Assembly (NCBI GenBank): GCA_034509925.1
Contig: CM067536.1
Coordinates: forward strand, 2,082,501 to 2,146,500
From: Hirudinaria manillensis
Taxonomy: Eukaryota > Annelida > Clitellata > Hirudinida > Hirudinidae
Direction of reading: 5' to 3'
Length of the DNA stretch: 64,000 bases
Shown: piece after piece, positions 6,036-62,480 of the stretch
How the letters are laid out: every line of letters starts with the position of its first letter
Position numbering within the stretch: position 1 is the first letter of the stretch
Made by a program: the position numbers and the translations under genes
Notes under the pieces: model-generated
What the model was told of the DNA's origin: nothing
Databases searched by the model: none
What the model saw: only the letters and a program-made list of their open reading frames with translations

Positions 6036-6200
6036 CTTAATAAATACCAGATAATTAAATTTACTTAATAAATACCAGATAAAACCTAAATATGAAAATA
6101 TAAAAAAAATGCTGATGGTTTTAACGTTGATTTATTATTTGGAGGTAAGAAATATTTTTAAAATAAATTCTAAATTAATTCGTTTGGCGTTAGAAGGTAT

Positions 6201-6497
6201 TGTTGGATCCCTAGATCCAATAAATTGAATAATATTTAAAATTATATTGCCGATTAATTATTTTAATAATTAATTAAATTTAGTGGCAATATAATTTGAG
6301 AATTAAATTGGTGCTATTCAGACTCTTTGGTTATGTACCTTTGACAAATGGATTTATATCGGAAAGTAGAGCGAGAGTAATAGAAACAGCAGATTTCAAG
6401 ACTTAATCAATTAAGCATTTTACATCTTCCAAGCCATCTGACAACTTTCAATAAACCTGCCCTTCTATAATTAGTTTGAGGACCCCGGGTTATTACA
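6201..6497 (+). repeat. 5' LTR of SAP element copy 1
   Basis: 297 bp, TG...CA ends. The 3' 25 bases (TTTGAGGACCC...GGGTTATTACA) are also conserved in the related solo LTRs at 25,897, 42,236 and 44,166. Confidence 0.93.
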
Positions 6498-6498
6498 T

Positions 6499-6514
6499 TG
6501 GTGTCAGGAGTTGG
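6499..6514 (+). other. tRNA-Leu primer-binding site
   Basis: TGGTGTCAGGAGTTGG starts one base after the 5' LTR. It is complementary to the CCA-end of animal tRNA-Leu(CAA), which ends ...CTTCTGACA-CCA. The same site occurs in the minus-strand elements at 36,399-36,416 and 42,110-42,126. Confidence 0.8.
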
Positions 6515-6578
6515 ATTTAGAGTTAAAGGGTATCCAAAAGTAACTAAAGTAGAAGCTTGTTTAGTTGAAAAGTGAACG

Positions 6579-7733
6579 ATGCCGAAGTACTTGGATGAAT
6601 TGTACGTGCCTCGATTGAGACAAGAATTGAGAGAGCGTGGCCTGGATTGGAAAGGCACGAAAGCTGAGATACGAGAGCGACTTGGGACATGGCTGACAGA
6701 GAATGGCCATGACCCAGAGGAATACGAATTCGAGAATCCATCCCATAAAAAGATGGATGAATTTCTTGATTTTATGAAAAAGTCCGTAGATGAGATGAGG
6801 GAATGTATTAGGAGTATTAGGGGTGATTTGAAAAACAGAGCGGTTCCATGCCAGGATGTCTCGTTGGCTTCGGGTGAAGACTCTGCCGAGAAGAGTCCTG
6901 TTGGTTCTTTTGAGGAGAGCAAAGTGGTGCTTCCATCTTGCGAAGAACAAGGAGAGGAACTCTGCAAAAAGGTTACCAACGAGGAACAAATCATGTCCGT
7001 TGTTCCAGGTACCGTTTCTGGCAGCGTTGGGATGGAGTCATTAGAGGGCACATCCAACCACAGTGCGTGTGTGTCTCCAGAAGCTCTGTGCGTGATGGCA
7101 GACTTAGGGAACTCGACGTTGGAGCCCATAGAGTTACCAGATCAGGTCGAGTCGTCAGCAGGGCCCAGAGAGCTCACGGAGGTTTTAGTGGAGCAAGTGG
7201 GGCTTTCGGAGGAGCCTGTGGGATTGCCGGTGGATCATGTGGAGTTGTTGGTGCAGCTCGAGGAGTTACTGATGAGTCACGTGGAGTTGCCGGTGGAGCA
7301 CACGGATTTGATGGTGGAACAAGTAGAGTCTACAGAACAGCCCATGAATTTACCAGCGGATGTTTCGGCTCCATTGGAAATAACAGAAGGGAGTGCTCGG
7401 AATTTCAGGAGAGTGCCTAGCAAGGAAAATGGAGCAGGTGATCCTGTAGAGAGTCTGAGATCTGGCGACATGGTGGAGCAGGAGGTTGAGCATAGAAATG
7501 GCGATGTTCCACGACTGAAACTTGTGGGACGTAGAAGTAAAAGGGGGGAAACAGAAATCCCAGAAGATGGCAAAGCAAATGGATCTGGGATTTGCAGCCA
7601 TGAGATTGTTGGAAGATCGGATCCTATTCCTAGAGTAAAAATGAAAATGGGAATAGATGTCTGTTCGGGACGAACAGATTTAAGGAGGGGGCAGTGTTGG
7701 ATCCCTAGATCCAATAAATTGAATAATATTTAA
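6579..7733 (+). CDS. SAP-domain gag-like protein of LTR element (copy 1)
   Basis: 384 codons from an ATG 80 bases after the primer site; the ORF runs through the polypurine tract into the 3' LTR. Residues about 3-37 (LDELYVPRLRQELRERG, then KAEIRERL) fit a SAP motif, the two-helix module that binds AT-rich DNA. A conserved stretch (NGHDPEEYEFENP) follows. The rest is acidic with repeated VELPVE/LPVEH-type segments that may form a coiled coil. No zinc knuckle or enzyme domain is seen. The minus-strand copy at 35,182-36,336 is intact and nearly identical, and the Gypsy relative at 41,634-42,047 has the same N-terminus, so this is probably a genuine gag-like ORF. Large open frames in other registers of this region are shadows. 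Confidence 0.8.
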   Translation: MPKYLDELYVPRLRQELRERGLDWKGTKAEIRERLGTWLTENGHDPEEYEFENPSHKKMDEFLDFMKKSVDEMRECIRSIRGDLKNRAVPCQDVSLASGEDSAEKSPVGSFEESKVVLPSCEEQGEELCKKVTNEEQIMSVVPGTVSGSVGMESLEGTSNHSACVSPEALCVMADLGNSTLEPIELPDQVESSAGPRELTEVLVEQVGLSEEPVGLPVDHVELLVQLEELLMSHVELPVEHTDLMVEQVESTEQPMNLPADVSAPLEITEGSARNFRRVPSKENGAGDPVESLRSGDMVEQEVEHRNGDVPRLKLVGRRSKRGETEIPEDGKANGSGICSHEIVGRSDPIPRVKMKMGIDVCSGRTDLRRGQCWIPRSNKLNNI

Positions 7734-7991
7734 AATTATATTGCCGATTAATTATTTTAATAATTAATTAAATTTAGTGGCAATATAATTTGAGAATTAA
7801 ATTGGTGCTATTCAGACTCTTTGGTTATGTACCTTTGACAAATGGATTTATATCGGAAAGTAGAGCGAGAGTAATAGAAACAGCAGATTTCAAGACTTAA
7901 TCAATTAAGCATTTTACATCTTCCAAGCCATCTGACAACTTTCAATAAACCTGCCCTTCTATAATTAGTTTGAGGACCCCGGGTTATTACA
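7695..7991 (+). repeat. 3' LTR of SAP element copy 1
   Basis: 297 bp. No difference from the 5' LTR was seen by eye. Followed by target duplication gtat. Confidence 0.93.
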
Positions 7992-7995
7992 GTAT

Positions 7996-15580: not shown

Positions 15581-17106
15581 CGGCATATACGTTGACTGCG
15601 TACGCTTTCCACCAACCGTTGATGCTTACCGCTGGAGGAGATTTTGATAAAAACCTCCTCCGGTCTCCTGTAACTGCGTCGTCGGAAACGTTAGTCGATG
15701 GTGATGATGATGATGACGATGAGGAGGATGGTGGTGATGATGATGACGACGAAGATGATGGCGGCGATGATGATGATCGTGATTGTAGTTAGTGATATCT
15801 TTATCTGATCGAGTTGTTGCTGATCATGATCGACATGAACTCTTGCTGCCGTAGATATCCTAGTAATCGTGGAATTAACAAATAATTGATTAATATAATG
15901 CAAATTAATAAAAAAAAGTAATAATAATAATAATAATAATAATATGGAAACTGAGAAGATTGGAGAGAATCGATGGCTCATCTCTTTCTAAATTTTACAA
16001 CTTCGACGTCTCCACACCTCTCCGAGAGGTATGTTTGGTGAATTAATAATTTGAAGAAAGCATTTTCAGCAATTTTAAACAAATCAAACCAATCATCAAT
16101 CACTTTTCGATGCTCAGATCCTGGCAGATCGTGAATTCACTTTGCTAAACTGCCAATGCATTCTTGCAGTGGTTAACATTAGGTCGTTTGCGTCAGAGGA
16201 AAATTCATTTATTACAATTTATTACAATTTATTGCTAATTGAACTAATAATGACCCTAATTGATTGTATTTAAACGTGAGTCCATCAATTACTTTTGCGA
16301 GATCAATTCATCGATGGGCGAATGTTGATGAGGCTGATGTTGTTATTGATAACATCGAAGCATACAAAATAGTAACAGATTAATGGAAAGTGCTACAAAA
16401 GAAAAAAAAATAATAATCTCTGCCATCCATGCAGTTGTTAAGAAGCCAAGCATGTTTGATTAATTAAGGCACGATAATTGATTGGATTAACAGTTAACAT
16501 TTTAATTGGATTTTAACTGTAATCATTCGGATGGAGTCAGATTTATAAATATTGAGTTGTATATTTTGGTTATACTGTAGTTTAATTTTTTCTAATCCAT
16601 GGTACTATAATAATCCACATACTTTCTAGTCATGGTTTACCACGGCTATACACAACAACAAACAACACAAAAAAGCTAAAACAACAACAACATCTAAGGT
16701 GAAGGTTGGTATTCTCTAGCAGGGATACCCTACGCAGCTATTCCCTGAAGTTGTCTGATAAAGGGAACACATTATTACACGGATTCATGATTGCCACCAC
16801 ACCTGCAAATGCCACCAAAAAAGACCCTCTTGATCATCGTTATTATCATCACCATCACCATCGTCACTTCTACGCCATTATCATTGCCATCAAAATCATC
16901 ATCATCGTAATCATTATCAACAGCATAACAAGCGTCATCATCACCGGCACGACCACACCAGCCGCAGCAGCTGACGTCACCACAACATCGTTGCATCGTA
17001 ATCTTCCGAGGTCCGAACGCTCCTTACACAATCCTTCCCCTCTTCCCCTTCTTCCCTCACCATCTCACTCCTTGTGGAGCCAGCTACAAACATCCCTCGA
17101 CAGACG

Positions 17107-19068
17107 ATGTTGATGCAAATAGAAGACTTCCGGAACAACAACAACAGCAGCAGCACCAACGCCAACACAACAACAACAACCACCACCATCAACAACAACA
17201 ATAACAGCAGCATTCACAAGCACGGCATCAACATCAAAGATCAACAGCGCGCCATCATCATTAGCGGACAGAAATTTGAATCCTCAGTCGAAGCCAAGAA
17301 ACTGAACAGCGGCAGCGACCTCCTTATCGAGAGGGACGCCCGCTACTTTGTTCAGAGGGAAGACTTTGTCGAGCAGAGACGCGAGAAGCCGAGTCCTCCG
17401 AAGATGAAGAGGAGAGTCAAGGAGCTCCTGAATGAGCAAAACAACTCCAAGAACCAGCAACAGGCGACCGATTTCTCTAAGAAGATCTTACCCGAGGTCC
17501 ACAAGGACTGCAACTGCGGAAGTCCGAAGGGAAGGAAAGGATCGTCATCGTCATCGAAATCTCACTCCACGCCTTCTCACAGAACCGGCACAGAGCAGGC
17601 AAGACCCAGTTCAAGGTCGAGAGACGAGACTCTCAAAGGCTCTCCGGCGAAAGCCAACCCCAGGAAGCAAACCAAAAACGACCCACAACAATCATCCTTT
17701 GACGACGAACCAATCCACATGAGCTGGGACGAGGTAATGCAGGAGGCCAAAATGCTCGGCATTCCTCTCAAGTCTCAGAGCAAGCTCGAGACCGGGTCTT
17801 GCGGCAAGACTCGAGGCGAAAAGGCGAGGCAGGCCAAGAACTTCTACTCCGATGGCGACGACTGCAACAGGATCAACGGTCGTCAGGATGTCTCGAGCGT
17901 GGCTTCGTCGGCCTCGTCGATCGGAATGAGATTCCCCGATCAGCAGAGGAGATCGGACAACAAGAGTCCGCAGACTTTCAAAGGCATGATCAAGCTCCAG
18001 AATTTTTTCAAAAAACTCGAACTGAGGCACAAGTCTCCCTGTCATTGCCAGGCCGGCAGGACTCAGAGAGGCGTCGAGAAGAGTCGTTCGTCGCCGAGAT
18101 CGTTCTTCAGGGACATTCTGATGCCGCAGAAACTCAAGGACCATTCTTTTGTCTCCAAATTCCACCACAAGACAACCACCAGCAATAGCAGTAGCAGATG
18201 GGATTGCGAGGAATGCATCAAGCAGTGCAAGTACTGCAGATCCATGGAGGCAGCGAGCTTCCAGGAGAGGTCACGGACCGACAGATCGACGGACGTCGAC
18301 GACGAAGACTGCAGCCTTTCCATGGCCAGAAGTTGGCAGCCGGAGTCGAGCTTCGACCAGCTTTCGCTGCCTCTGAAATCTTCGAGTTTGAACAGAAACA
18401 TCGCCAATGTTTCCTACCAGGGCAGTTGTTATTCGCTCTCTTCGAAGGCTCAACACGCGAATCTCAGTTCGACCAGAAGTTTCAATGTCGGATTAGCTGA
18501 TTCTGATATTTCGCTGTCAGGTAAAATTGCTGTTGTTGTTGTTGTTGTTGTTTATTTTTCTGTTTTTAAATAAATATTTTGATGTTTATGGTTTATAAAT
18601 AAATGTTTGCGACTGATATATGCTTATACTAATGATATTATTCAAGTATTTGATTGTAAGTACTTTATAATATAGGTATTATAATATGGGTATGTGTGCA
18701 TTATTCACTAAATTAAGTTAGCTGATACCAATAATGCAAAATTAATAAAAAAAACAAACTAATCGATAATTGGAAGTATAATTAAAATGGGCACGTTACC
18801 AAAAACAGATTTTATTAAAAAAGGGATATGCTATTAAAACTATGTAAAATGGAAATTGCCTTGGACGTTACTTAGTCATACTTTCCACGCAAGAAGTTGT
18901 TTTATGGCCCTGCATGGATATTCCACCTCCTTGTCAGTGGAAATCCTTTGAGGGATGCAAATCGTGCGCAACATCATCCGGATGAAAATATGTTGGGCAC
19001 AGCATCGATTGAATTTTACAATAACCTCGTAATATTGCCTAGCTTCTTAAATTGCTTCTCTACAACGG

Positions 19069-24727: not shown

Positions 24728-27173
24728 ACTAACCAATCATCAATAATAACTGATGAAAGATCGAGACAGCCACGTTAACAACACCAACCTTTCCAACGTT
24801 CGTGGATCCAGTGAAGGAAATCTTGGCTACGAGCGGATTCTCGCAGATGGATCGTCCGAACGAGGGAGCGTTTTGCTTGGAGCAGACGAGCACGTTCAGG
24901 ACACCCTTGGGAAAACCCGCATCCATCGCTAACTAAAAAAAAAGAGCTAATAGCTAATAGCCAGTCGGGTAATCAAGTTCGTTAACTTTGTTATCAGGAC
25001 CGACCGAATAATTTACTAAATTACTAAAATAAAAACAAATAAAAATTAGAATTGAATTATTTAAAAGATGTCTCTTAGAAATACAAAATTATTTTCTTTC
25101 ACCTCGTTGCCAATACATGATCGAGCGGTCATTGTTAGTTGATGACTGACAATAACATTAACGTCAACAATTTATGTTAATAATAACAAACGACTTAACG
25201 AATTATTAGGTTACCCGTCATCAGGTAACGAACCACGTGCGCTCACCTGGCACAGTGCCAGAGCAGACAGGGGGGTTTCTTCCGAGGGTTTGACGACCGC
25301 GGTGCACCCGGCAGCAAGAGCAGGTGCCACCTTCCTCGTTAGCATCGCGAGTGGAAAGTTCCACTGGTGACGAAAGAACAGTGATGATGATGATGATGGT
25401 TCGAGTGAGTTGTGGATGATCTAATCTACTGGCAAAGCTAAATTATAAATTCCTAACTCTCTTCCACTTGCACCTTAAAACTTAATTATTATAACAATAC
25501 CATCATCATCATCATCATTAACTAATTAACAACTTAAATTAGCCACCGTTATCATCCACTATCATCTATATCTGTAATACCGTCCGAACTGAACCACGAA
25601 TTCTGCCCAAAAAACCGCTAACCGGAGTTATCATTCCCGTGACCCCGACGGGCTGTTTAATGGTGATGCACCTCTTGTTGTTGGCCACAGCCGGAATGAC
25701 GTCCCCGTAAACCCTGCGACCCTCCTCTGCGAACCACTCCACGAAGTCGGCCGCGTAATGGACCTCCGTCCGAGCGTCTTTCAGGGGTTTGCCCTGTTGG
25801 ATAAGTCGGCTGGTGATTTATTTACTTGACCGGTTAATGTAATATATATATATATTCTGCTAATATCACATATTACCAATATGTAAATATATATATTGTT
25901 ATAACCCCGAAAATAGATAATCAAAAGAATTATTTAAAATTATATGACGCTATAAAATTAGAGCTGTTATACAGAGTCTTCGGTTAGGTTTGATTATGCA
26001 GCTCAACAAATCGAGAAACGAGCAAGGCAGAGCGAGAGTCAGAGCGAAAGCAGAGAGTGAGAGAATTGGCAGATTCTAAGACCTGGACAATTAGGCATTG
26101 AATAGCTTCCAAGCCATCTGAACACTTTCAATAAACCTGACCTGCCATAATTAGTTTGAGGACCCGGGGTTATTACAATATATACATACATCATATATTC
26201 CCAATACATACTACTACTTGTACTTTATGCTAGAAATGCAACTAAGTGTTAGAGTTTCAATTTGAAAAGCTACAATCACAAACATGGAGTGTTCTACAAT
26301 TGACGTCTTCTGGAATAACAAAAAGGACTTTACGATTCTCAGTCTTTACGGTGATTACAGGTAATGCTTGTACAAAATGGGTAGTTCGAGTTAATTAATG
26401 AACTTCTTGTATGAAATAACGGACAACGAAATAACTAATTATATTGCATTCAAATCAACAAATAAAAATTTGGTAAAAAAAAAACTTCTAGAATAACTCC
26501 AGTATTTTGCACCCACATTCTCCAATGTTACAATCTTGGCCAATTGTTCTTCATTGTCCAAGATAAGGTGAAACCATTTCTTTAATACATTAGACCTTTC
26601 CTGAGAATATCAACAAGTATTGTAAACAAAACGATTAAGAATTTGATCAAAATCATGTAATAAATAAATTAATAATTACAATGCAAGATTTTTATTGGTG
26701 CTTTATAACATAAGTTAAGATTCGAATTCTCAGATTCAAAATAATTAATGTAATAATTCTCATAACCACAATTTAGTTGCTTCAAAGTTTATTGTTATAG
26801 TCAACTAATAACCTCGTCGCCATATTAACTCACCCTAACAGGCAAAGCCTTCCAATTCTGGAAAGCTCCATGGGCAACGTTAATCGCTCCATCTAAATAA
26901 TCCACAGAGAGGTCCGGAACTTTTCCAATTACTTCGTTTGTCGCCGGATTGAGCACTAACGTCGGAAGAGTGAATAAAAGATGGCGAGTCTGGTCGAGAT
27001 TAACAAGTTAAAAAAAACCCACCTTCGAATGTTTTTCCACTTCGAGCAGACACCCATTCGTTGTTAATGAAACATTTATTACGTAGCAATGATAGTCCAG
27101 AGACCGAACGAATATTACAAAACCTCGCGCACTTTACAAAGTTTACCAATTTTAGCGATTTTACTCCAATCAT
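22535..27173 (-). CDS. ALDH5A1: Succinate-semialdehyde dehydrogenase, mitochondrial (complete, 11 exons)
   Basis: The enzyme oxidises succinate semialdehyde to succinate with NAD, the last step of GABA breakdown, in mitochondria. Exons: 27,173-27,023; 26,955-26,834; 26,600-26,517; 25,793-25,623; 25,363-25,247; 24,932-24,789; 24,267-24,124; 23,822-23,667; 23,356-23,187; 22,992-22,934; 22,740-22,535. Phases all agree: 507 aa. The N-terminus ([15 protein letters not shown]...) is basic without acidic residues, as in mitochondrial presequences. Family motifs: WNFP (about 177), general-base Glu in MELGG (279), and TCVC (312-315) with catalytic Cys313 and the second Cys of the SSADH redox switch. 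The C-terminus [17 protein letters not shown] matches the family. A solo LTR sits in intron 3. Exons 1-4 are duplicated at 60,056-61,577. Confidence 0.96.
25897..26177 (+). mobile_element. Solo LTR of the tRNA-Leu-primed family, in ALDH5A1 intron 3
   Basis: 281 bp, TGTTATAACC...GGTTATTACA, flanked by atat on both sides. Its final third (CAATAAACCTGACCTGCCAT then AATTAGTTTGAGGACCCGGG) matches the SAP-element LTRs. It is also present in the duplicated copy (60,303-60,583), so it predates the duplication. Confidence 0.9.
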
Positions 27174-29202
27174 TTAAATGCATAAATTAAAAAAAAGATT
27201 GAAATCAATTCCTTTATATGACTGTTAAAAGAGCCACAAATTAATGGTTCTGAAATTACTAATGCTTTAAGACATCGGATGGCTAGAAACAATCGCCGCC
27301 TTAATTTCGCCAACCATTAATGCTAAATTATTTTTTTCTAGTAATATTCTTTCAAGCAAATCCAGATTTAACTTGTGATTTAAAAGAAATACAGCTTTCC
27401 ATTCGAGCGAATTTATAGGATGCTTCACTAACCGGATCAATCTACCTCCTCATCAATAATTCATGTTAGATAGGCGTGAAAAATCTTTAAAAATGCCGAC
27501 ACATCGATTTAGTGTCATTCTGTTACAACCGAAAAATTTGCTATAGACCATTAAACCATGCAGTGAATGTGTTCTGTGCACTGGATAAAATTTTTATTTT
27601 TATATTTTTCTTCTATTCGACTCTTAAATTTAAGCAAAACATCATAATTGAATATACAACTGAGGCCGATTAATAGACTCGTGGATCACCTTTAAGGAAA
27701 CGCAAGCCTCCGCTAGCAGACTGACCCAGAATTTTAAGCTATATTTAATCACTAATTTTAGTTACAGTTAACCATGTTGTAGAATTATTGTAATAGTATT
27801 GCAAGATATTTTCATTATAATGTTCCATACCTCGAATATATTTAACAATCCATGTAGTCGATGGAATCTCCATACAAACATTTGGTAGCCAATAGAAAAG
27901 AAGTGCTCATTATAATAATGTTCACGCGAGATCCTATATATCATAAAGAATTTTGATATTCGCAATTTCAAATCAGATATTCGCAGCCAGTCTCATAATA
28001 ATAATAATAATAATATTTTTTTATTCTGGGTACTAAGGTTGATGTAACTCGTGTTGTAGAACGTTGATATTCTAGTAAGAATAAAGGACTGGTCCAACAT
28101 TTCTTTGCTCTCCTAGTGCCTTTAGAAATTTTAGTTGCGTCCCGCCAAATGTTGAATTTGTTTTTTTCGACTCGACTGCCAAACTATCTTAGCAATGGTA
28201 AATTTAGGAGACGTTCAGCGAGTTAGACATGGGACAAACAAAGACAAAATTGCTAAAATTCAAAGAGTCTTAATATATGCAAGTGGGATTACAAATGTAA
28301 TACCTGCTTTAAGTCGATGCCCACCTTAGTTCAACAGGACTTGCATCAAATAGGCAAGTGCAGCTTAACTGTCCCAAAGTTGGGAATACAGGGAAAACAT
28401 ACTTTTCTCAACCTACGCAAAACCGCTGACTTCAAGTCGCGCTCCCATATTGCTTTCACTGATCTTCATTGAACCGGCCATATCCCATTTGCCTCCTAGT
28501 TTAAAGGTAAACATGTATAATTTTAGTAATGATTTTCCCATTTAATTTCATTTGTTTCCTGCTTAAGTGATATTTATCCTATAATTCTAACGATTTTATT
28601 AAAACAACACTCAGGTTTCACTTTAGAATTATAACTTTTTAATGCAACAACTGTAACAAAACAATGACTGGTTTTGTTCTTATAAATTTCTCATTAAAAT
28701 CCTTTTAAAACCTTGAAACAGAGGGATGAAGTCTTCCCCTGTGTAAAACCACCTCCAATAATGAAACATTAAATTGGCACCAGGAACCAGGAATTGATGT
28801 TGCATTTGTTAAATTATTATTATCAGCAGCAGCCCATGTTCTTGAGACTGCCTGTATTAACAAAGGCAAGCAAATGAAACAAAGAAGTTATCCTGATCTG
28901 CTTGTGTTTCCAAGGTCTGAACCTGCATGGCTCAGACTTTGACCATTTTCACCACATCAGACAGGGATGTTAGCATGATTGTTATTTGAGGACAATTTCT
29001 TTTAGATTTTGCTGTTGTGATCATAATTGTTGTATATTGTATAAGATCGTAATTGTTCTATGTTGTATAAGTTGCTTCTGCACTTAGTCATGTTTACTTT
29101 ATTTTTTTTGATTATTTGGCTCAATGAAAAATTCAAGTTACTGGCATGATGGTGATAACGCGATTATAATGCATTTGGATATTTGTTGGCAGAAATGTAT
29201 GC
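27174..29202. other. ALDH5A1 upstream region, no gene recognised
   Basis: AT-rich DNA holding a ~235 bp interspersed repeat at about 27,775-28,010, an AAT run at 28,000 (much longer in copy 2 near 62,410-62,470) and a coding-looking but broken stretch at about 28,790-28,990. The sequence just before 27,173 should include the ALDH5A1 promoter; no TATA box could be singled out. Confidence 0.5.
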
Positions 29203-31020
29203 ATTTTGTTTTTATTTATTAAAACATTGAACACTACTAAATGCATGAGTGTATCAATTTACATATTTACAGGTCAAGTAGGAAAAAAAATTAGCATTAC
29301 CTCCTCCCAAGAAGACAAGGACGGGCCCAGAGACAATTTTGATTTGAACCCAAGTGTTGTTGGTTGGTATCATGAGTGTCATTGTTGTTATTGCGGATGA
29401 TTCTGGTACGAAACGCAATGACATTGATAATGTCCAAAGGAGTTTAGTTAACATAACTTTGAGGAGCTCAATTCTAATAATGTAATATTTGTAGAAAAGT
29501 TGCAGCTCTGTTCTTGCTTCTGAACTAAGAAGACAATGACTTGGAAGGAGTCTGCAGTCAAAATTGGTGCTGGGGATCACTGCCATTGTTCCTGTCATCC
29601 TGAGCAATCATTGCCCCTTCGCGAAGGACACCAAGCCACTTTACAGCATCTGCTTTCCCAACATCTACATTTTCAGAGATTGTACTGCTTCTGGATTTTC
29701 CTTCTCTAACCCTGTACCTCCGATCTTTTCAGTAGCCGAGTCATACAACTCCATCTTCATTAGTCACGAGCTGGTCTGGTGAGGTTTTTGTGACTAACGA
29801 CAAAGCCTTTTGCTACATCTTTTGTCGCAACAGGGGTGAGAACTTCAAGAACAGATTGATTGCCTAGATGGCCAGCATAATCACTGCTTTCAATGGAGTC
29901 CCCCATCCTCTTGAATAAATGCTACATCCTTAAACTTTCAATGCTTATTTAGTAATAATGCATCAGGGAATAACTTAATAAGCATGTCTACAAAATTTTG
30001 GCATTCAAATTATTACCAACCAATCTTTCAATTTCCAGTGACAGATTACCTGCCACATTCTCAAGAATTCCTGTCTTTAATGAATATTAATTTTGAATTC
30101 TTGTCTTGACATCTTGTGATCTTGCCATCCTGACATTTATTCCTGGTTTCTATTGTGCTTGTTTTTTACTTCATGATCCTAGGAATAGGATTTATAAGTT
30201 TTTTTTTCTGGAAAATTAATTTAATTCCATTTATTCCAAAAATTATTTGTGATTTTTGTCGGGTTGGTAAGTCAATTTCATAATATTCTAGAAAGTTTAT
30301 TTTTTTTGTTGCAAGCAGTAATGTCTGGTTAGATATGAGATTGTGTTTCTTTGCTGCCTAGTTTTCACCTGCTCAGTTGCAAATCAAAAGCTTAAAAGTT
30401 ACAAAACATGGCAAAACAAAAAATCTACCCAAATTTCTTTGAAGAATATGAAGGTGGTATAAAATATGTTTATCAATTGGAGACTCATAACGTACTTGTT
30501 ATAAAAAAATGAACTTCTCAATTGCGTAACCGTGTTCCTCCTCGTTTTCAAATGAAATAATATTTAATTCTTTCTCCAGATATAAGTTGGATGACACAAA
30601 ATTGTGCGTGTCTCCTGATAGGTAAGGTGTGAGTTCTCAACCATAAATTTTTACAATGTTTTCAGACTGTCATTGGAATTTGACCAGTGCTACAATTCAA
30701 AAATTTCCAAAATAAGTCTTTTTTTACTTATTTGAGAATTAATCTTAAAATTATTACATTAAAAATAGCCTCAAAAATATCTTGATCAATTTCCAATAAC
30801 ATGAAGGTACAGCATTCCCCAAAAATTTGTGAGAATCTTCAAATAAATATTCGCCATCTTTTGGTTTACTAAAGTCCTCCAACTCCTAAGAAAGCAGTTA
30901 ATTTTAAATATTTACAAAATTAAATTAAACTAATACATTAAATTGTACTCTGAAAATGTATTGGAATTTAAATTACGGTCTTATGTAATTAAATTTAAAT
31001 TTAATAAGTAGACCACGACG
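29203..31020. other. 1.82 kb block present only in duplication copy 1
   Basis: The flanks are contiguous in copy 2 (about 63,664-63,667). Several stretches look like decayed coding sequence on the minus strand between 29,330 and 29,930, with scattered stops. A short exon-like piece with good acceptor and donor lies at 30,581-30,622 (+), and another minus-strand exon-like piece at about 30,790-30,893. I see no terminal repeats or target duplication, so insertion into copy 1 and deletion from copy 2 are both possible. Confidence 0.5.
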
Positions 31021-31442
31021 AATTCTTTCAAGCGTGTAATTTTTTCTTCTTGATTTCTTTCAGACATGTAGAATGAATAGAGATGTTCTATGGTGTAAGT
31101 ACTGTAGCCGTAATCAATCGAAAAGCATACTCAAGATCGTACTTTCGCTATTCATAAAATCACACTTTAATGTATTTATTCAAATAATTATTTTATTTAA
31201 TAATTTTTATTTAGAAATTATTGCAAATATAGGACGCATTTTGATAATAATTGATGAGCTTTCAAAAAAAAGAAAAACACGTTGTAAATATAATTAATAC
31301 CTCTGGGAGATTATTTTATCAATTACCTTTTCAACATTAAACCGTCTTTTGCCGATAGCATTAATTATAATATTGGCGGAAAAATAATTAAGTATTATTA
31401 AATTGAGGCGTTATTTATTAAATCTTTATCACAGTCGTATAC

Positions 31443-32876: not shown

Positions 32877-35800
32877 CTATTTCTTTTTTGCGGAATAACA
32901 CAACAATGAAGCAGAAATTATAAAAACGGCCAACAAAAAACCGATGAAGGAGTAAACAAAGTACATCATATTGGCTACTCCAAATATTCCGGAAGCTAAA
33001 TGAAATATAATTTAATATTAATAATCAATTAATTAATTTAATTTGATATATAACAATTGGATACGATAAGATAGTACTCGAACCCATGTAAATTAATTTA
33101 AATAGGTTAGTTCAAATCTCGTTATTTTACTACTTTTGCTCGGTCCCGACAAAATCCAACACAAAATAAATATGCCACCCTCAATTCTCGCTACTATGCC
33201 ACCAGGGGCCTGACGATGTTTATCTAACACATGAGGTTAAGGACATATTCCCAGTCTGGTGGAAGTAATTAACAGACATTACCTTGTATTTTTAAGACTT
33301 GAACAGGTTAATACTCTCAGGACTTCTTGGTGAGTGATGATTAAGGAAGGTGATGGAACATTCCATGGAATTTGATTGGTGGAATGGGAAAAGTGGACTA
33401 GTGTATAAATAGGAATGAGAGTGAATGTTGAAGATTTTATGTGAAAATTGCAAGTTGGGGTGAAGAATAGCAAATGTTAGCTCAGAAAAGCAAGCGAACC
33501 AATTTTACACTGAAGGAGAAGATCGTTGATGCCATGAAGAAGGAAACAAATCATTCTAAGGTGGCCAGAGAGTTTAACAAGAAATGGGACGTCGAAGTTA
33601 AGAGAGCCATTCTCATCAAGAAGAATGCAATCGAGGCTGCATTCAACGCTTGAGTTCTATCGAAGCTCTGGAAGCTGACGCAGGCTTATTACCCGAAGCA
33701 CGATGAGGGGATGTCCATGTTGCTGAAGCAAGCAAGAGGAAAGAATCTGCCAGTCAGCGGCAATCTGATGAAGGAGAAAGAGATAAAACGGACCGATCTG
33801 ATGCCGATCCCGGACTTCATGGCTAGCGAAGGATGGCTGGGCAATTTCAAAATGCGCCACGGCATCACGTTTATGACAGTGCAGGGCGACGCTGGAGAGT
33901 CGTGTTCTCAAGTCTGGTGTGATGCCAGACGACGAGATCCGCCGTAAGAAGATGCGGCAGCTACCGATTTTGAGAGCTTTAGACTGAGCTGATGGCTAAC
34001 TTGAGAAAATAAAGCCGTTTTTATTTGTTAAAATAAGACTGTTTTTACAAACACTAGCTACTATGCCACTTTTGCTCAGTCCCGACGTGTTACATAGTAG
34101 CGAGATTCGACTATAATAAAATATCAAAGGAATTATAATTGAATTGCTTATCATTAGAAGCATTCAGGTATTTTTTATCAGCTATGTTAATAGAATAACC
34201 TTTACAACTGCTATGAATATTTTCAGGTTCTTTTTTGATGTAACCTTCCAGGCAAATGCACTCATAATCTCCAAACAAGTTACTGCAGTTTGTGGTTTCT
34301 TGATCACAAATTGTGACATTCAAATTACATTCGTCAATATCTGAATAATTATTATTGTCCTCACAATGATTTTTAAAGCAGTTTATACAGAATCTTTTAA
34401 ATGTATTAAAAAGCTGAACACAGTATTTGTTGCTATTATCTGTTTTTCAACACATGGAACTCTTAAACATTATTGAAATATTATTAAAATTATCTTTTCT
34501 CAGCCCTTCTTACATCATTAATATCATAAGAATTGCAATTGAATTGCAAGTCATTAGGAACACTGTGGTATTTTTATCAGCTATGTTACTAGAATAACCT
34601 TCACAACTGTCATGAATATTTTCAGGTTCTTTTTTGATGTAACCTTCCAGGCAAATGCACTCATAATCTCCAAACAAGTTACTGCAGTTTGTGGTTTCTT
34701 GATCACAAATTGTGACATTCAAATTACATTCGTCAATATCTGAATAATTATTATTGTCCTCACAATGATTTTTAAAGCAGTTTATACAGAATCTTTTAAA
34801 TGTATTAAAAAGCTGAACACAGTATTTGTTGCTATTATCTGTTTTTCAACACATGGAACTCTTAAACATTATTGAAATATTATTAAAATTATCTTTTCTC
34901 AGCCCTTCTTACATCATTAATATTGTAATAACCCAGGGTCCTCAAACTAATTATAGAAGGGCAGGTTTATTGAAAGTTGTCAGATGGCTTGGAAGATGTA
35001 CAATGCTTAATTGATTAAGTCTTGAAATCTGCTGTTTCTATTACTCTCGCTCTCCTTTCCGATATAAATCCATTTGTCAAAGGTACATAACTAAAGAGTC
35101 TGAATAGCACCAATTTAATTCTCAAATTATATTGCCACTAAATTTAATTAATTATTAAAATAATTAATCGGCAATATAATTTTAAATATTATTCAATTTA
35201 TTGGATCTAGGGATCCAACACTGCCCCCTCCTTAAATCTGTTCGTCCCGAACAGACATCTATTCCCATTTTCATTTTTACTCTCGGAATAGGATCCGATC
35301 TTCCAACAATCTCATGGCTGCAAATCCCAGATCCATTTGCTTTGTCATCTTCTGGGATTTCTGTCTCCTCCCTTTTACTTCTGCATCCCGCAAGTTTCAG
35401 CCGCGGAACATCGCCATTTCTATGCACACTCTCCTGCTCCACGATGTCGCCAGATCCCAGACTCTCCTCAGGATCACCTGCTCCACTTTCCATGCTAGGC
35501 ACTCTCCTGAAATCCCGAGCACTCCCTTCTGTTATTTCCAATGGAGCCGAAACATCCGCTGGTAAATCCATGGGCTGTTCTGTAGACTCTACTTGTTCCA
35601 CCATCAAATCCGTGTGCTCCACCGGCAACTCCACGTGACTCATCAGTAACTCCTCGAGCTGCACCAACAACTCCACATGATCCACCGGCAATCCCACAGG
35701 CTCCTCCGAAAGCCCCACTTGCTCCACTAAAACCTCCGTGAGCTCTCTGGGCCCTGCTGACAACTCGACCTGATCTGGTAACTCTATGGGCTCCAACGTC

Positions 35801-38800
35801 GAGTTCCTTAAGTCTGCCATCACGCACAGAGCTTCTGGAGACACACACGCACTGTGGTTGGATGTGCCCTCTAATGACTCCATCCCAACGCTGCCAGAAA
35901 CGGTACCTGGAACAACGGACATGATTTGTTCCTCGTTGGTAACCTTTTTGCAGAGTTCCTCTCCTTGTTCTTCGCAAGATGGAAGCACCACTTTGCTCTC
36001 CTCAAAAGAACCAACAGGACTCTTCTCGGCAGAGTCTTCACCCGAAGCCAACGAGACATCCTGGCATGGAACCGCTCTGTTTTTCAAATCACCCCTAATA
36101 CTCCTAATACATTCCCTCATCTCATCTACGGACTTTTTCATAACATCAAGAAATTCATCCATCTTTTTATGGGATGGATTCTCGAATTCGTATTCCTCTG
36201 GGTCATGGCCATTCTCTGTCAGCCATGTCTCAAGTCGCTCTCGTATCTCAGCTTTCGTGCCTTTCCAATCCAGGCCACGCTCTCTCAATTCTTGTCTCAA
36301 TCGAGGCACGTACAATTCATCCAAGTACTTCGGCATCGTTCACTTTTCAACTAAACAAGCTTCTACTTTAGTTACTTTTGGATACCCTTTAACTCTAAAT
36401 CCCACTCCTGACACCAATGTAATAACCCAGGGTCCTCAAACTAATTATAGAAGGGCAGGTTTATTGAAAGTTGTCAGATGGCTTGGAAGATGTACAATGC
36501 TTAATTGATTAAGTCTTGAAATCTGCTGTTTCTATTACTCTCGCTCTCCTTTCCGATATAAATCCATTTGTCAAAGGTACATAACCAAAGAGTCTGAATA
36601 GCACCAATTTAATTCTCAAATTATATTGCCACTAAATTTAATTAATTATTAAAATAATTAATCGGCAATATAATTTTAAATATTATTCAATTTATTGGAT
36701 CTAGGGATCCAACACTATCATAAGAATTGCAATTGAATTGCAAGTCATTAGGAACACTGTGGTATTTTTATCAGCTATGTTACTAGAATAACCTTCACAA
36801 CTGTCATGAATATTTTCAGGTTCTTTTTTGATGTAACCTTCCAGGCAAATGCACTCATAATCTCCAAACAAGTTACTGCAGTTTGTGGTTTCTTGATCAC
36901 AAATTGTGACATTCAAATTACATTCGTCAATATCTGAATAATTATTATTGTCCTCACAATGATTTTTAAAGCAGTTTATACAGAATCTTTTAAATGTATT
37001 AAAAAGCTGAACACAGTATTTGTTGCTATTATCTGTTTTTCAACACATGGAACTCTTAAACATTATTGAAATATTATTAAAATTATCTTTTCTCAGCCCT
37101 TCTTACATCATTAATATCATAAGAATTGCAATTGAATTGCAAGTCATTAGGAACACTGTGGTATTTTTATCAGCTATGTTACTAGAATAACCTTCACAAC
37201 TGTCATGAATATTTTCAGGTTCTTTTTTGATGTAACCTTCCAGGCAAATGCACTCATAATCTCCAAACAAGTTACTGCAGTTTGTGGTTTCTTGATCACA
37301 AATTGTGACATTCAAATTACATTCGTCAATATCTGAATAATTATTATTGTCCTCACAATGATTTTTAAAGCAGTTTATACAGAATCTTTTAAATGTATTA
37401 AAAAGCTGAACACAGTATTTGTTGCTATTATCTGTTTTTCAACACATGGAACTCTTAAACATTATTGAAATATTATTAAAATTATCTTTTCTCAGCCCTT
37501 CTTACATCATTAATATCATAAGAATTGCAATTGAATTGCAAGTCATTAGGAACACTGTGGTATTTTTATCAGCTATGTTACTAGAATAACCTTCACAACT
37601 GTCATGAATATTTTCAGGTTCTTTTTTGATGTAACCTTCCAGGCAAATGCACTCATAATCTCCAAGCAGGTTACTGCAGTTTGTGGTTTTTTGATCACAA
37701 ATTGTGACATTATCACATTCATCAGCATCTGAATAATTTTATTCAATCAAAATAGGTCCTGAATTAATTTTGCATCCATTACTGCTACGTTATTTACAAC
37801 TATTAATAATTAAACAAAATTCAGCAAACATTAATATAGTATCGGTTGGCCAGAAGGGATTTCAATCCCGCTGCGTGGCCAAACTTGTTTATTAGTACAA
37901 GTTCCAATAAATATTTTACATGGACCTTCCATGATAAATTCATCTACATCTGAAGTTTTTCTAGATATCACAATGATTATAAAAACTATTTGTTTCAACT
38001 ATTGCTATTTATTACTGCCATTGACTGTTAAACCGGTTTTTAGTTTATGTATACGGTCTCAGGTTGATTTGATATGATTGATTTATTGTTTTCTTGGTAG
38101 ATCAGCTCAGTGTTTTTGTGTAGAGCTGTATATACATGCTAATAAAAATGTTTTATCAACTTTTGTGATAGAATAACCTTCACAACTGTCATGAATATTT
38201 TCAGGTTCTTTTTTGATGTAACCTTTCAGGCAAATGCACTCATAATCTCCAAACAAGTTACTGCACTTTGTGGTTTCTTGATCACAAATTGTGACATTCA
38301 AATTACATTCGTCAATATCTGAATAATTTTATTCAATCAAATGAAAGGAATGATGGTAGGTATAATTATTTTAGGTTGAATGATTCATACTCACCACTGC
38401 AATTGTCAATCATCTGCTTGAAACCTCTACCACATGTACATGAATAACCACCTTCGTTATTAGTACAATTTCCATTATATTTTTTACATGGATCCTCCAT
38501 GATACATTCATCTACATCTGAAATTTGTTCTTGATATCACAATGATTACACAAACTATTTGTTTCAACTATTGCTATTTATTATTGCCATTGACTGTTAA
38601 ACTGGTTTTTAGTTTAGGGATATGGTCTCAGTTTCTGGAATAAGTCGATTGGATGAGAAACTTAGAGGCTTTGCTTTGGATCATTTCATTTTTTTATTTG
38701 AAGCATAGGGTGAGATCAGCTCAGTGTTTAATTGTGTAGAGCCGTACGTACATGTTTGTTGTATCTTGAATTACTTGCTATATAATTAAGGACTACTTTG

Positions 38801-41800
38801 GGAATTACTTTTGGAGATACTAAGCTGTTTTATTACCAATAATGTGCCATTGCACTAACCTCAAAAAGAATCTGAATATTATATTATTAAACTTTTAAGT
38901 AATAATAAATTCTTACAATATTATTACATTATCCACAACACCTCCCCCTCATATATAATTATAGATCTTCTTGCTTGCGTCGATCACGAGTCGCTTAGGT
39001 GGACTGCGATGGCCTGTGGATCTTTATACTGGCTTTGGCATTGCGTCTTCTTGGGAGTGTTCCTCAACCATCGACTTGCCTCTGTCGAATGGACAACACC
39101 ATTCCCTCTGTCTTGTTGACTTCTCAATTTGTCCTTCCTTATCACCAGCACGCCTCTTCCTTCTTGACATAGGACTTCTTATGTTTTTCCTCCTATCATC
39201 GTATTTGTCTGATCTGCATCTGTCATGGCTTCTTGACCTCGATCTACTCCTGTATCATCTGTGATAACTTCTTGACCTATGATCATCATTTGGAGAAAGA
39301 GAGTGAGATAGAGTACATGAATGGAACTTCCTTCGTTTGTCCCCATTTTGACCGATTGAATCGCCTTGTTCATGGACTGAGTAAGATCTCCTTGGAACTC
39401 TACTCATCCACTTACTGCTATTAATGCAACACTGCCATCTACGTTGCCCCGTTCTTGTGATTACTGCAGCAACCCTCTGCTTCCTCCTCCTCCTGAGGCA
39501 ATGGGTTCCGAACGTCTTTGCTAGGGAAGTCTCGAGAATCCCCAAATGCTGTCCTATCTACAGCTATGACTGAATCAGCATCGACTGTCTTCTCTGGTTC
39601 ATCCTGGAGCTCACTCTCCCAGTAGGATCAACATTAATCTCTTCTTCCTCCTTCCACATATCGCAGTGGACAGGGGTAGTTGCCACCAAGATCTCTGCGG
39701 TGAACTTGAACATTATGGCTTCTTGGGCCTCGCCCACTACATCAAGTGGAGTATACTTACTCCCTTCTTCCTCCTTCCACACATCGCAGTGGACAGGAGT
39801 AGGTGCAGCCACATTGTCTGTGCTGAACTTGCCCATCTTGGGTTCAACTTGGGTCTCGCCCACTATAACAAGCGGAGTATTCTTACTACCTACTTCCTCC
39901 CTCCATGCATTGCAGTGGACAGGGATAGGTGCAATCACGGTATCTGCGCTGAACATCTTGATTATTGTCAGCCATCGTTCTTGATCTCTTTGTTCCTTTC
40001 TCTGTTCTTTTTCCTCGCACTCTTGTTTCAATCTCTGCTCTTTTTCTTCCTGGTAGGACAGGAACATCATGAACATCTCTGCTACCGATAGTTCTTGAGC
40101 GTCATCCTCGTCGCCAATGTTGTATCTTGAATTACTTGCTATATAATTAAGGACTACTTTGGGAATTGGACATACTAAGCTATTTTATTACCAAGAATGT
40201 GCCATTGCACTAACCTCAAAAAGATTTTGAATGTTATATTAATAAACTTTTAAGTAATAATAAATTCTTACAATATTATTACATTTTCCATAACAAAATG
40301 TTTTATCAACTTTTGTGATAGTATAACAAGTTCCATTAAAAACTTTGTTACTACAAGTTCCAATAAATATTGTTGTAACCCGTGATCTGATGAATTAATT
40401 AACGTAAGGATAACTTTATTGTGATTTAACTAATGGCAAAGATGGCTTTGAAAATTTGGTCTATTGCTGTCTTGATCGGAACTGCTTCATTACTCGAATC
40501 GCTACTCAAGTCTTTGAGATGATAGGTTCTGAATATTAATCATTAATTAATAAACTTTAAATTAATGTCAGGGATCAAACATTGCCCGCTCCTTAAATCT
40601 GTTCGTCCCGAACAGACTGTTCTGTTTCTCCGTGATATTTCGCTAATCGGTTGCTGTGAACCACGTTCATCTTAGTCCTTGCTGTCTTCTGTATGCGATA
40701 TACCACGTCGTTTATTTTCTTAATGAATCGGTATGGTCCTTCCCAATCCTTTTGTAACTTTGGCGACCTTCCTTTTTTTCGTTGGGGACAGCCAGACTAG
40801 TTCATCTTCTTTAAAACTTACGTCATTGGCTTGCCTATCGTATCTCGCTTTGGCTTGATCGCTATTAACTGTAATATTTTTCCGGGCAACCTGATGTGTG
40901 TCAGCCAGTGTGTTTCTTAGGCTTGAAACGTAGTCACATGCCGACTTAGATTCCTCTGCACTTCCGAACATCATATCGGCAGGAAGACGAATCTCTCTCA
41001 TTTTCGATGGATTGATTCCTGTCGTTTTATGCACGGCCGTTCGGTAGGCCTTAAGGACAAGTGGCAGATATCTGTCCCAGTCATCTTGCTTTTCACTTAC
41101 CATTTTTGAAAAATGCTGTTCCATGGTTCTGTTAAATCTTTCGACCATGCCGTCTGATTGCGGATGCAATGCAGTGGTTCTTGTTCTATGAATTCCCAGG
41201 TTTTCGCATAGCTTCTGAAATATTTTTGACTCGAAATTCCTCCCTTGGTCTGAATGTAACTCTATTGGCACCCCAAATTGACTAATCCAATTATTTACGA
41301 GAGCATCAGCTACATTCTCCGTCTCCTGATTTGGAAGTGCAAATGCTTCAGTCCACTTGGTGAAGTAATCGCTGTTCACCAATATGTACCGGTATCCCTT
41401 TTTTGATGTAGGGAATTGCCCGGCAATATCCAAAGCTATTCTTTCAAAAGGTACTCCCATGTTGTAAGGTTGCATTAGACCTTTAGTCTTCTTTTGAGGA
41501 CCTTTACTGGTTGCGCAATTATTGCAATTTCTACTCCACTCCTCAATGTCTTGTTTGTAGTGCAACCACGGACAAGCTATAACGTGAAAGGTGAATGGGG
41601 CATCTAATTCTGCTTTAACCTTTCTAAGGTCGGTCATCTCCTTGGATGATCTGGAGTTGGCTCTTCAGTTTTTACCTCTTCCCGCAAAACATCCATGACT
41701 GTCTGGAAATTGGCTACGTATGTTTTTACCTGCTCTCGCAAAACATCCATGACTGTCTGGAAATTCTTTATGTCGGATTTCATATCTGACCGGGAAACAT

Positions 41801-44800
41801 CAATGCCGGAATTTATATCTGACAGCAAAACATCATTGTCTGATTTCATATCTGCCCAAAAGGCTTCCCATTCTTTTTTCTTTGGATCCTCAAATTCATA
41901 CTCCGATGGATCATGATTATTTTCCAAAAGCCAATCCTGGAGCCGTTCTTGTGGTTCGGCTTTTAGGTCATTTGCATCCAGGCCTCGATTCCTTAGTTCC
42001 CGTTTCAAATCGGGAACGCGCACCTCGTCCAGCATCTTAATTCCCATTTCTGTAGTTAAACTCGCTGTCTTTACCTCTAGTTAATCGATATCCCTTTACG
42101 ACGTTAAATCCCACTCCTGACACCAATGTTGTAACCCGGGATCTGATGAATTAATTAACGTAAGGATAACTTTATTGTGATTCAACTAGTTCTTGATATC
42201 ACAATGAACCAACTATTTGTTTCAACTATTGCTATTGTAATAACCCGGGGTTCGCAATTAGCTGATGGTAGGTTTAGACTTTATTGAAGGTGTTCAGTTA
42301 ACGTAACTGATCTTAAGATGGCTGGAATTTATAAACTTAGACTTAATGAAGTATTGAAGCGCGTCCTAAATGTTACGGTTAGGGGTATTCTTCTAAATAA
42401 AAGATTCTGAATATTAACGTGCTTAATTATGGAATTAATTAATCACAATTTAACTAATTATTCTTTAATTATCTAGGGCCAGGGTTACAACACTATTTAA
42501 CACATTGACTTTAAAACATCATTAATTAAATGTTCATAAGCAATCAACAACATCACGGTGATATTAACCGAAGCAAACTAACCACTGCAGTCTAGACTGT
42601 CCGTCGTATAAAATCCACTTCCACAGAGGCACGTCCCTATAAATTCATTTGTAAATAGGAATTGTGTTGTGCTTACTGTGCAACTTTTTTTTCCACATAA
42701 CTCTGGTTGAAATTGACAATCTATCATGAAAATTGAATAAATTGGTAAAGAACATTTTACACATTTTATCTATAATCATTTTTAATTTCATTTACTATTC
42801 CTGATAATAAGAACTCTCATCTATTGTTATTATATTACCATTAATATTTTGACGAGGGTGAAGTTGGCAAACTTTCGGCAAACTATACTCCTATAAACGC
42901 CTATAACTCCGGAACGGAAAGAGCTAGAATCAAAATTCTTTTTTTTATCTGATAGGTAATGACCACGGAAATGATGTGGATATAATCAAAAACATTTATC
43001 TTTAACGAGAAATTTAGTACAAGTGGCCGATGCTCAAAGCCGATATCCCGATTTCCATAAATGGGCTTTCAGAAAATTCCACCCCCCACCAAAAAAAAAA
43101 TATATATGTTGATTCTCCTTCCCATCCTAAAAAAGAGATTTAGTTCAACTCAATAATCGTAGAAACATCGCCTTAATCTCGCAAATGAAGTCATCCTACG
43201 GATATTTCTGGATATTTTATTTATTTATTTATTTATTCAAACTGAAGGGCCCAATAGGACCACTAACACAGTTTTCGATTTCCAATTCGAGCAAGGACAA
43301 ATTGCAATGACAGTATGAGTCAAGGTGGCGATAATGACTACAATGAGAGTTAGTTATATGTAAGATATTTGCTAAGATCAAAGTCTCTTATAAGTGCATT
43401 GAATCTAGAAACGGTTGTAGCATTAATAAAATCAGGTGGTAATGAGTTCCAGGGTTTAACAATCCTATTGCAAAAAGAATATTTGACGACGTCGGTAGAA
43501 AATTTGCATTGCTTTAGCTTGAGATTGTGACCCCTTGTGCCGCGATAACTTTGAAGAACCAGGAAGTGTTTCAGCAAATTTGATCCGCAATAATTGTATT
43601 GAAGGTTTTTTAAAAGATTATAAAGTACTTGTACTGGTCCGCTAGTATAGTGTTGTAGATTTTCTGAAACGTCTTTGAAATCTCTATTGAAATATTAGAA
43701 TCAATTTTTCGCACAAAGCAGAGCAGCGAGAGAACAGCACGAGGATCGGTTGAAAGCGAAGATAGAGAGATCTGAGGAGCTTACATAATAAGGATACCGA
43801 AAGACTTATACCGGGGCGCTGTAATTTTTTTTTTTTTTTGGGCCTTCCTAAGCTAAGCTTTTGAGTCCGCACATGGAAACCGACAGGGACATCCGGCTGA
43901 TCACCGGATGCGGCCCACCTCCGGAGAACGTCAGGGGTTTCAATGGGCCGAAACGTTCGAAGATGGGGGACCTTCTCTGAGGATCCCTGTCGGAAAGCTC
44001 CGAGGAGGAGTTTCCAGCATCTGTGCCAATACTTAGTTTGAAAAACATTTTTTATGCAAAAGGTTGTTTCTATCCAATAAAATATATTTGAGGTCCATGA
44101 GTTCTACTTTATTTTCACTCTCCTCCTTTGTTGTCAACTTGTATTTCGTGAACCTATATTCATAATGTAATAACCCGGGGTCCTCAAACTAATTATGGAA
44201 GGTCAGGTTTATTGAAAGTGTTCAGATGGCTTGGAAGATATACAATGCTCGATTGTCTAAGTCTTGGAATCTGCTGTTTCTCTTACTCTCGCTCTGCTTT
44301 TCTAGATTTCTCTATTTGTCGAGGTTCACAACCAAAGACTCTGAATAATACCCTGAACATTAATTAATTATTTATTTAATTTATTAATTAGCAAGATGCT
44401 TTTAATTATTCTTTAATTATCTGGATCCAGAGATCCAACGATAACTTAAATTTCAAACCTTTTAACAGCATCATTCCCATTGTTGGAATAAATAATATTT
44501 CATTAATTCAACATGACTTGTTAGCAAAACAATTTTTATATTAATACTATTTTATATCATTATTTCACCATTTAAAATGTCAACTAATTAAAAAATAATA
44601 AAAAAAACAAAACATTACCAACGAATGCGCAAAAGGGACCAAACCGCCCTTTACAGATGTCTGGACAATGTTCGATGGGATATGAGGCACGACATTTAGG
44701 ATATTTTAATGGATCGATATCAGGAATTTGATGCATTATATCTAGTTATTAAAAATCATAACTAATCACTTCGAAAATTAACTTTTAATTGTTTAATGTA

Positions 44801-59816: not shown

Positions 59817-60055
59817 GTGAGGCGGAAGATAATAAAATATAATAATAATTATTAAAATAATAATAATAATTCGTTATGATTAAGTGGTTTATGTCTGAGG
59901 TGTACTGCAAGTTTGGGGTTGACTTTACAATACCATCATCATCATCATCATTAACTAATTAACAACTTAAATTAGCCACCATTATCATCAATTATCATCT
60001 ACATCCGTAATACCGTCTGAACTGAACCACGAATTCTGCCCAAAAAACCGCTAAC

Positions 60056-61577: not shown

Positions 61578-62407
61578 TTAAATGCATAAATTAAAAAAAA
61601 AGATTGAAATCAATTCCTTTATATGACTGTTAAAAGAGCCACAAATTAATGGTTCTGATATTACTAATGCTTTAAGACATCGGATGGCTAGAAACAATCG
61701 CCGCCTTAATTTCGCCAACCATTAATGCTAAATTATTTCTTTCTAGTAATATTCTTTCAAGCAAATCCAGATTTAACTTGTGATTTAAAAGAAATACAGC
61801 TTTCCATTCGAGCGAATTTATAGGATGCTTCACTAACCGGATCAATCTACCTCCTCATCAATAATTCATGTTAGATAGGCGCTTCATTCAGTGAAAAATC
61901 TTTAAAATGCCGACACATCGATTTAGTGTCATCCTGTTACAACCGAAAAATTGCTATAGACCATTAAACCATGCAGTGAATGTGTTCTGTGCGCTGGATA
62001 AAATTTTTATTTTTATATTTTTCTTCTATTCGACTCTTAAATTCAAGCAAAACATCATAATTGAATATACAACTGAGGCCGATTAATAGACTCGTGGATC
62101 ACCTTTAAGGAAACGCAAGCCTCCGCTAGCAGACTGACCCAGAATTTTAAGCTATATTTAATCACTAATTTTAGTTACAGTTAACCATGTTGTAGAATTA
62201 TTGTAATAGCATTGCAAGATATTTTCATTATAATGTTCCATACCTCGAATATATTTAACAATCCACGTAGTCGATGGAATCTCCATACAAACATTTGGTA
62301 GCCAATAGAAAAGAAGTGCTCATTATAATAATGTTCACGCGAGATCCTATATATCATAAAGAATTTTGATATTCGCAATTTCAAATCAGATATTCGCAGC
62401 CAGTCTC

Positions 62408-62480
<73 letters not shown>

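Follow-up and report, generated by a model that had tools for sequence, protein, structure and literature searches.

An enzyme-free LTR retrotransposon family with an open SAP-containing frame and its putative Ty3/Gypsy partners in Hirudinaria manillensis

The window analyzed here, a stretch of 64,000 nucleotides from the Hirudinaria manillensis genome, contains two copies of a short LTR retrotransposon whose only protein begins with a SAP domain. The locus raises the question of how an element of this kind multiplies, where its SAP domain came from, and whether the protein, or only the frame that encodes it, matters to the copies that spread. The window copies were compared with each other and with the host genome (148 Mb in 23 contigs, of which 13 measure at least 8 Mb), in which further copies and autonomous relatives were searched for.

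Structure of the two window copies

Copy 1 (6201 to 7991, forward strand; L001) and copy 2 (34924 to 36714, reverse strand) are 98.2% identical across 1,791 bp, and the components that a first-pass annotation had ascribed to these two 1,791-bp copies, i.e., 297-bp LTRs, a primer site, a polypurine tract, and one ORF of 384 codons, are all present. In copy 1, the 5′ LTR (6201 to 6497; TGTTGG...TTACA) and the 3′ LTR (7695 to 7991) are identical, each 297 bp long, and comparison of the flanks gives a GTAT target-site duplication on the left (6197 to 6200) and on the right (7992 to 7995). The LTRs of copy 2, placed by LTR comparison on the reverse strand (5′ LTR, 36418 to 36714; 3′ LTR, 34924 to 35220), differ by one base when read by eye. 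The primer-binding site (6498 to 6517 in copy 1) complements the 3′ end of a tRNA-Leu(CAG) gene of the host, from which copy 1 deviates at a single base. The 3′ cis region that includes the polypurine tract occupies 7661 to 7694. Each copy has a single ORF of 384 amino acids (6579 to 7733, forward strand, in copy 1; 35182 to 36336, reverse strand, in copy 2). The 3′ LTR supplies the stop, about 39 bases from its start, together with the final 12 codons, and an AATAAA is found further down the LTR.

Elsewhere in the genome, a tandem array at C1:5585511-5629423 (L087) comprises about 75 units, all of them about 585 bp long and containing the last 17 bases of a tRNA-Leu. The one unit that was read contains a tRNA-Leu(CAG) gene, which matches the primer site of the elements.

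Copy 2 is flanked by ATAT (34920 to 34923, reverse strand) on one side and ATAG (36715 to 36718) on the other, and it is inserted within a 399-bp tandem unit. The empty site, with ATAT, is present in two intact units of this repeat, and thus the target of copy 2 was a 4-bp ATAT in which one base has changed beside the 5′ LTR. All three imperfect duplications (copy 2 at 36715 to 36718, L018, and L026) end in G beside the 5′ LTR. A G also precedes the 3′ LTR in copy 1, and it might represent an extra end base retained at integration. The tandem units themselves (34172 to 38449) consist of four that are 98 to 99% alike, followed by more divergent pieces; read by eye, they encode an EGF-like cysteine-rich repeat, with copy 2 inside one unit.

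The presence of two LTRs, a tRNA-complementary primer site, a polypurine tract, and a target-site duplication identifies the short element as an LTR retrotransposon. The reverse transcriptase (RT) and integrase that a Ty3/Gypsy element has of its own are missing from it, the SAP ORF being all that it encodes.

Composition of the 384-aa protein

The SAP assignment of the first-pass annotation stands in both copies. Pfam family PF02037 matches residues 7 to 35 of copy 1 (6597 to 6683; E value, 1.4e-6; 28.2 bits) and residues 7 to 39 of copy 2 (E value, 3.8e-8; 33.2 bits), above the curated cutoff of 23.9 bits in each case. No other Pfam family reaches its cutoff in the ORF of either copy, and among Pfam families there is no match to a zinc knuckle, a gag family, protease, RT, RNase H, or integrase, in agreement with the earlier description of the element as non-autonomous and enzyme free. 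The domain was recovered in all 10 members scanned with Pfam at an E value of 0.001 (five short elements and five Gag starts of the autonomous type). Matches to solved cellular SAP domains are weak, the best (E value, 0.002) being to 1zrj, the E1B-55kDa-associated protein 5. A single-sequence structural model of the first 100 residues was likewise weak (pLDDT, 62), with helices at residues 3 to 20 and 28 to 41 predicted at moderate confidence, and a Foldseek search with this weak model returned no SAP structural match.

Residues 1 to 85 comprise the SAP domain and the start of a coiled coil. Beyond them, the protein is largely acidic (50 acidic versus 17 basic residues between residues 91 and 330). 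The corresponding middle of the ORF (6834 to 7660 in copy 1) bears no meaningful similarity to the autonomous element read, and it consists of modules that have been gained and lost in frame among the open members of the subfamilies. The C terminus has a different origin. An autonomous element of the same genome reads the homologous 3′ DNA as the end of pol, in another frame, so the short protein acquires its C terminus incidentally, as its frame runs through cis-acting DNA into the LTR. A C-terminal pol remnant in the short protein was accordingly rejected.

Autonomous SAP-Gag Ty3/Gypsy elements and the origin of SAP

A SAP profile search of the host genome listed at least 150 hits (150 of 513 candidates were scored), and 46 of the 150 listed lie within open frames of at least 1,600 aa. 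The one hit that was followed up belongs to an element of 5,536 bp (C11:1890118-1895653), which was read as two pieces (L047 and L062). Its 222-bp LTRs are identical to each other, ATAT flanks it at either end, and its open Gag-Pol frame has 1,674 aa. The first piece contains SAP (E value, 1.4e-11), a CCHC zinc knuckle, and the beginning of a protease; the other, L062, contains protease (residues 7 to 93), RT (329 to 489), RNase H (552 to 680), integrase (809 to 976), and an integrase C-terminal domain. This pol order, in the one element examined, is that of Ty3/Gypsy. The first-pass annotation had considered SAP unusual in a gag position; in this genome that view does not hold, given the 46 long frames and the followed-up case, in which SAP forms the N terminus of a Gypsy Gag.

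The short element and the C11 element have in common the tRNA-Leu primer site, the end bases of the LTRs, the 4-bp type of target-site duplication, and a homologous leader, and 33 bases at the polypurine tract (7661 to 7693 in copy 1) are identical. Residues 2 to 85 of the short protein (6582 to 6833 in copy 1), which hold SAP and the coiled-coil start, are homologous to the N terminus of the C11 Gag (48% identity over 88 columns; E value, 2e-21), whereas past residue 85 the rest of the short ORF has no meaningful match to the C11 protein. It is these shared ends and the shared Gag start that relate the short element to Ty3/Gypsy. The two differ in LTR length (297 versus 222 bp) and in coding capacity: the autonomous element has a full Gag-Pol, and neither an enzyme nor a zinc knuckle is matched in the short one. 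Their LTRs are alike at the ends and in scattered blocks only; a gapped global alignment gives 158 identities and a score of 89, where 200 shuffles reach no more than 49.5. A full-length partner that shares the 297-bp LTR was not encountered in a non-exhaustive search.

With up to 2 mismatches allowed, the genome contains 467 instances of the 35-base polypurine/LTR junction (control, 0). Among the 100 junctions listed, 16 of 20 of the A type have a same-strand SAP hit 4.8 to 5.0 kb upstream; this pairing covered A-type junctions, not G-type ones. Within the window, a decayed SAP-Gypsy element of the autonomous type, not a member of the short family, lies at 40371 to 42188 on the reverse strand (3′ LTR, 40371 to 40581). 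An internal deletion has placed its leader and gag start next to its integrase region, and it contains a 305-aa ORF with an integrase core (40720 to 41637).

On these comparisons, SAP is evidently a normal component of this lineage, inherited by the short family from autonomous Gypsy relatives and not newly acquired by it, since the closest relatives found are autonomous Gypsy Gag N termini that come with a homologous leader, primer site, and polypurine tract. A fresh capture from a host chromatin gene by the short family, which the novelty argument of the first-pass annotation implied and to which the weak match to solved cellular SAP domains (1zrj) might be credited, is very improbable in view of those same relatives, and it was rejected because they already carry SAP. 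The autonomous lineage may have captured SAP at an older date.

Copy number and age of the family

Of 1,198 candidate places in a DNA search, 40 were scored; every one matches the element over its full or nearly full length, with at least 98% identity. A 66-base pattern spanning the ORF start matches 244 places when up to 3 mismatches are allowed and none when reversed as a control, far more than chance would give. Exact 4-bp duplications, mostly ATAT-like, flank 28 of 30 fetched copies, and the LTR pairs are identical in 25 of the 30, a count made on fixed 297-bp slices that distorted L004, in which each LTR has a 1-base insertion. Both counts bear out the earlier suggestion that the copies are very young. 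Older relatives, which lie outside the 100-copy sample described below, include L071 (84%) and L073 (70%), both broken; L072, which is open; and L075 (84%), which has a premature stop near the end. L074 covers the 3′ end only.

Several other features of the window were recorded. One LTR-like stretch (44166 to 44439, reverse strand) belongs to a related family and is 77% similar to the LTR of the element. A direct duplication about 34 kb apart (25494 to 31357 and 59927 to 64000; 96 to 98% alike in three pieces) carries LTR-like stretches at 26053 to 26177 and 60452 to 60583. A 499-aa open frame with a GTG start (17074 to 18573, forward strand) begins in a stretch of higher G+C content and has no Pfam match at an E value of 0.01.

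State of the reading frame

The frame is open to the 3′ LTR in 91 of 100 sampled copies. The sample comprises the first 100 listed of the 244 ORF-start places (80 exact, 12 with one mismatch, and 8 with two, all 8 of the latter on C1) and thus leans toward the copies closest to copy 1. Among the 80 exact places, 71 were in the protein search (70 open and 1 broken, L088) and the other 9 were 6 open and 3 broken; among the 20 mismatched places, 10 were in the protein search (9 open and 1 broken, L090) and the other 10 were 6 open and 4 broken. The 19 places outside the protein search were read separately, as that search may favor long frames, and the frame length that it reports reads through stops. 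Stop-bearing rows were therefore rechecked, with L088 and L090 found broken and L089 open, and for five further rows a search with residues 1 to 372 showed no stop before the LTR. That search gave a stop before the LTR in 4 of 110 scored loci.

Seven of the nine broken copies have seven different disabling indels, and the first stops of the remaining two are at different places. Since the nine are broken differently, the 100-copy sample contains no sign that a broken lineage has multiplied. The open ORFs measure 336 to 494 aa, and open subfamily members up to about 10% divergent differ by in-frame modules, in a comparison of eight open ORFs (the two window copies and six fetched) from which the broken L061, L067, and L068 were left out. 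No stops were found among 72 ORF mutations in 31 young copies, compared with 3.0 expected (P = 0.042), and the indels seen among young copies lie outside the ORF; both the 31-copy set and the protein-search loci were chosen by score, which disfavors broken copies and indels.

Selection on the protein

The ratio of nonsynonymous to synonymous changes (N/S) among the 31 copies equals that of a neutral simulation (50:22 observed versus 48.6:20.4 expected), and subfamily comparisons give a similar ratio in the ORF middle. Raw pN/pS values of 0.64 to 0.69 had initially suggested purifying selection; this was dropped, except for SAP in comparison with the autonomous elements, because the simulation with the observed mutation spectrum yields the same N/S. 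The dN/dS comparison proposed by the first-pass annotation thus does not reveal purifying selection acting on the whole protein. Its remark that the ORF is conserved holds for the frame, which is open in 91 of the 100 sampled copies, and not for the residues outside SAP, which look neutral; nor are most of the sampled copies broken.

The SAP domain is not clearly constrained within the short family: there are four synonymous and three nonsynonymous changes among the 31 copies (P = 0.17), and the counts against the 84%-identical L075 are 2:6. Between the short SAP and 23 SAP starts of the autonomous type, pN/pS is 0.27 to 0.37, with synonymous sites near saturation; the 23 are not independent and are those of 30 SAP loci (L031 to L060) in which the start pattern was found. 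At the level of the sequences, this comparison shows constraint that is not assigned to a branch, and part of it may lie on the autonomous branch. Mutations are distributed as 2 in 81 bases of leader, 7 in 165 bases of SAP coding DNA, and 54 in 825 bases of ORF middle, and in the same count, with copy 1 left out, as 12 in the 297 bases of each LTR.

Proposed mode of propagation and competing explanations

Taken together, we consider it probable, at roughly 70%, that the short elements are a young non-autonomous LTR family living as a trans-mobilized parasite of SAP-Gag Ty3/Gypsy elements, and that copies need the mini-Gag, or at least an open frame, in order to spread. The RNA of the short element would be packaged, reverse transcribed, and integrated by the proteins of autonomous elements. 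Less surely, the SAP mini-Gag would be translated and would join the Gag of the partner via the coiled coil, a step to which we attach moderate confidence; it may act in cis, on the RNA or cDNA of the element that encodes it, and SAP may help in chromatin or nuclear docking and could tether it to DNA or chromatin. New copies may be seeded only by copies in which the frame is open, and the acidic middle would mainly be an open spacer of variable length. In a stronger version, the ORF would encode a dedicated accessory protein: a SAP mini-Gag that lacks a capsid and whose acidic tail evolves freely. Acting in cis, this protein would mark the RNA or cDNA of its own element and dock it to partner particles or chromatin, such that broken-frame copies could not spread even though all enzymes come from elsewhere. 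This version seems rather unlikely to us.

Because residue changes outside SAP look neutral, the protein as such may not matter, and two explanations of the open frame do without it. One, which is doubtful although the more credible of the two, is that the protein has no function, that the SAP stretch is kept as an RNA packaging or dimerization signal extending into gag, and that the frame is open through youth and few open sources. The neutral N/S in the 31 copies, and in the middle between subfamilies, is consistent with this, as is the lower variation of the leader and SAP coding DNA relative to the ORF middle, with the LTRs low too. It accounts poorly for the fact that open members up to about 10% apart (open copies only having been compared) differ by whole in-frame modules, for the separate breakage of each of the 9 broken copies among 100, and for the purifying selection seen when SAP is compared with the autonomous SAP, though that selection may partly be on the autonomous branch. 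The other explanation, which appears unlikely, is that the openness of the frame matters and its residues do not, a stop inside the 3′ LTR shortening the 3′ untranslated region and protecting the RNA from nonsense-mediated decay. The position of the stop upstream of AATAAA in the LTR fits this idea, as does a middle that is neutral in its residues yet mostly in frame, but it leaves unexplained a SAP start under purifying selection relative to the autonomous SAP. The neutrally drifting middle is better accommodated by either explanation than by a mini-Gag.

Relation to known elements

TRIM and LARD elements are non-autonomous LTR elements with a primer site and a polypurine tract, typically without a conserved ORF; the short element resembles them in its non-autonomy, primer site, and polypurine tract and differs in having an ORF. 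Architectures that combine SAP, gag, and RT exist among invertebrate database proteins, and for this reason SAP-Gag itself is not claimed to be new. No description of SAP in a Gypsy Gag was found among the titles and beginnings of abstracts listed in literature searches, and the words SAP, N-terminal, and coiled do not occur in PMC2577118.

TR-GAG elements of plants, as described in PMC8704663, have a single ORF for the whole GAG protein and are mobilized although most proteins are missing. As in those elements, the short family combines LTRs, one Gag-derived ORF, a lack of enzymes, and presumed trans mobilization by a related autonomous element, and such a relative is present in the genome. 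In contrast to the whole GAG and plant hosts described there, it has a Gag N terminus joined to an unrelated acidic modular tail, in an animal host, with which the TTAGGG telomere repeat of the genome agrees. The Gag is incomplete, with no zinc knuckle or gag match and with similarity to the partner ending at residue 85, and the short family is therefore best called a variant of TR-GAG-like elements.

Implications

Non-autonomous LTR elements are usually regarded as passive cargo. In the short element, most sampled copies, in-frame length variants included, retain an open frame even as residues outside SAP drift, and the family thus offers a natural test of what a Gypsy parasite must keep: RNA signals, the Gag N terminus, or an open frame alone. 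SAP is a domain of chromatin proteins; because it stands at the N terminus of what appears to be an intact Gypsy Gag, a role in targeting to the nucleus or to chromatin can be put to the test.
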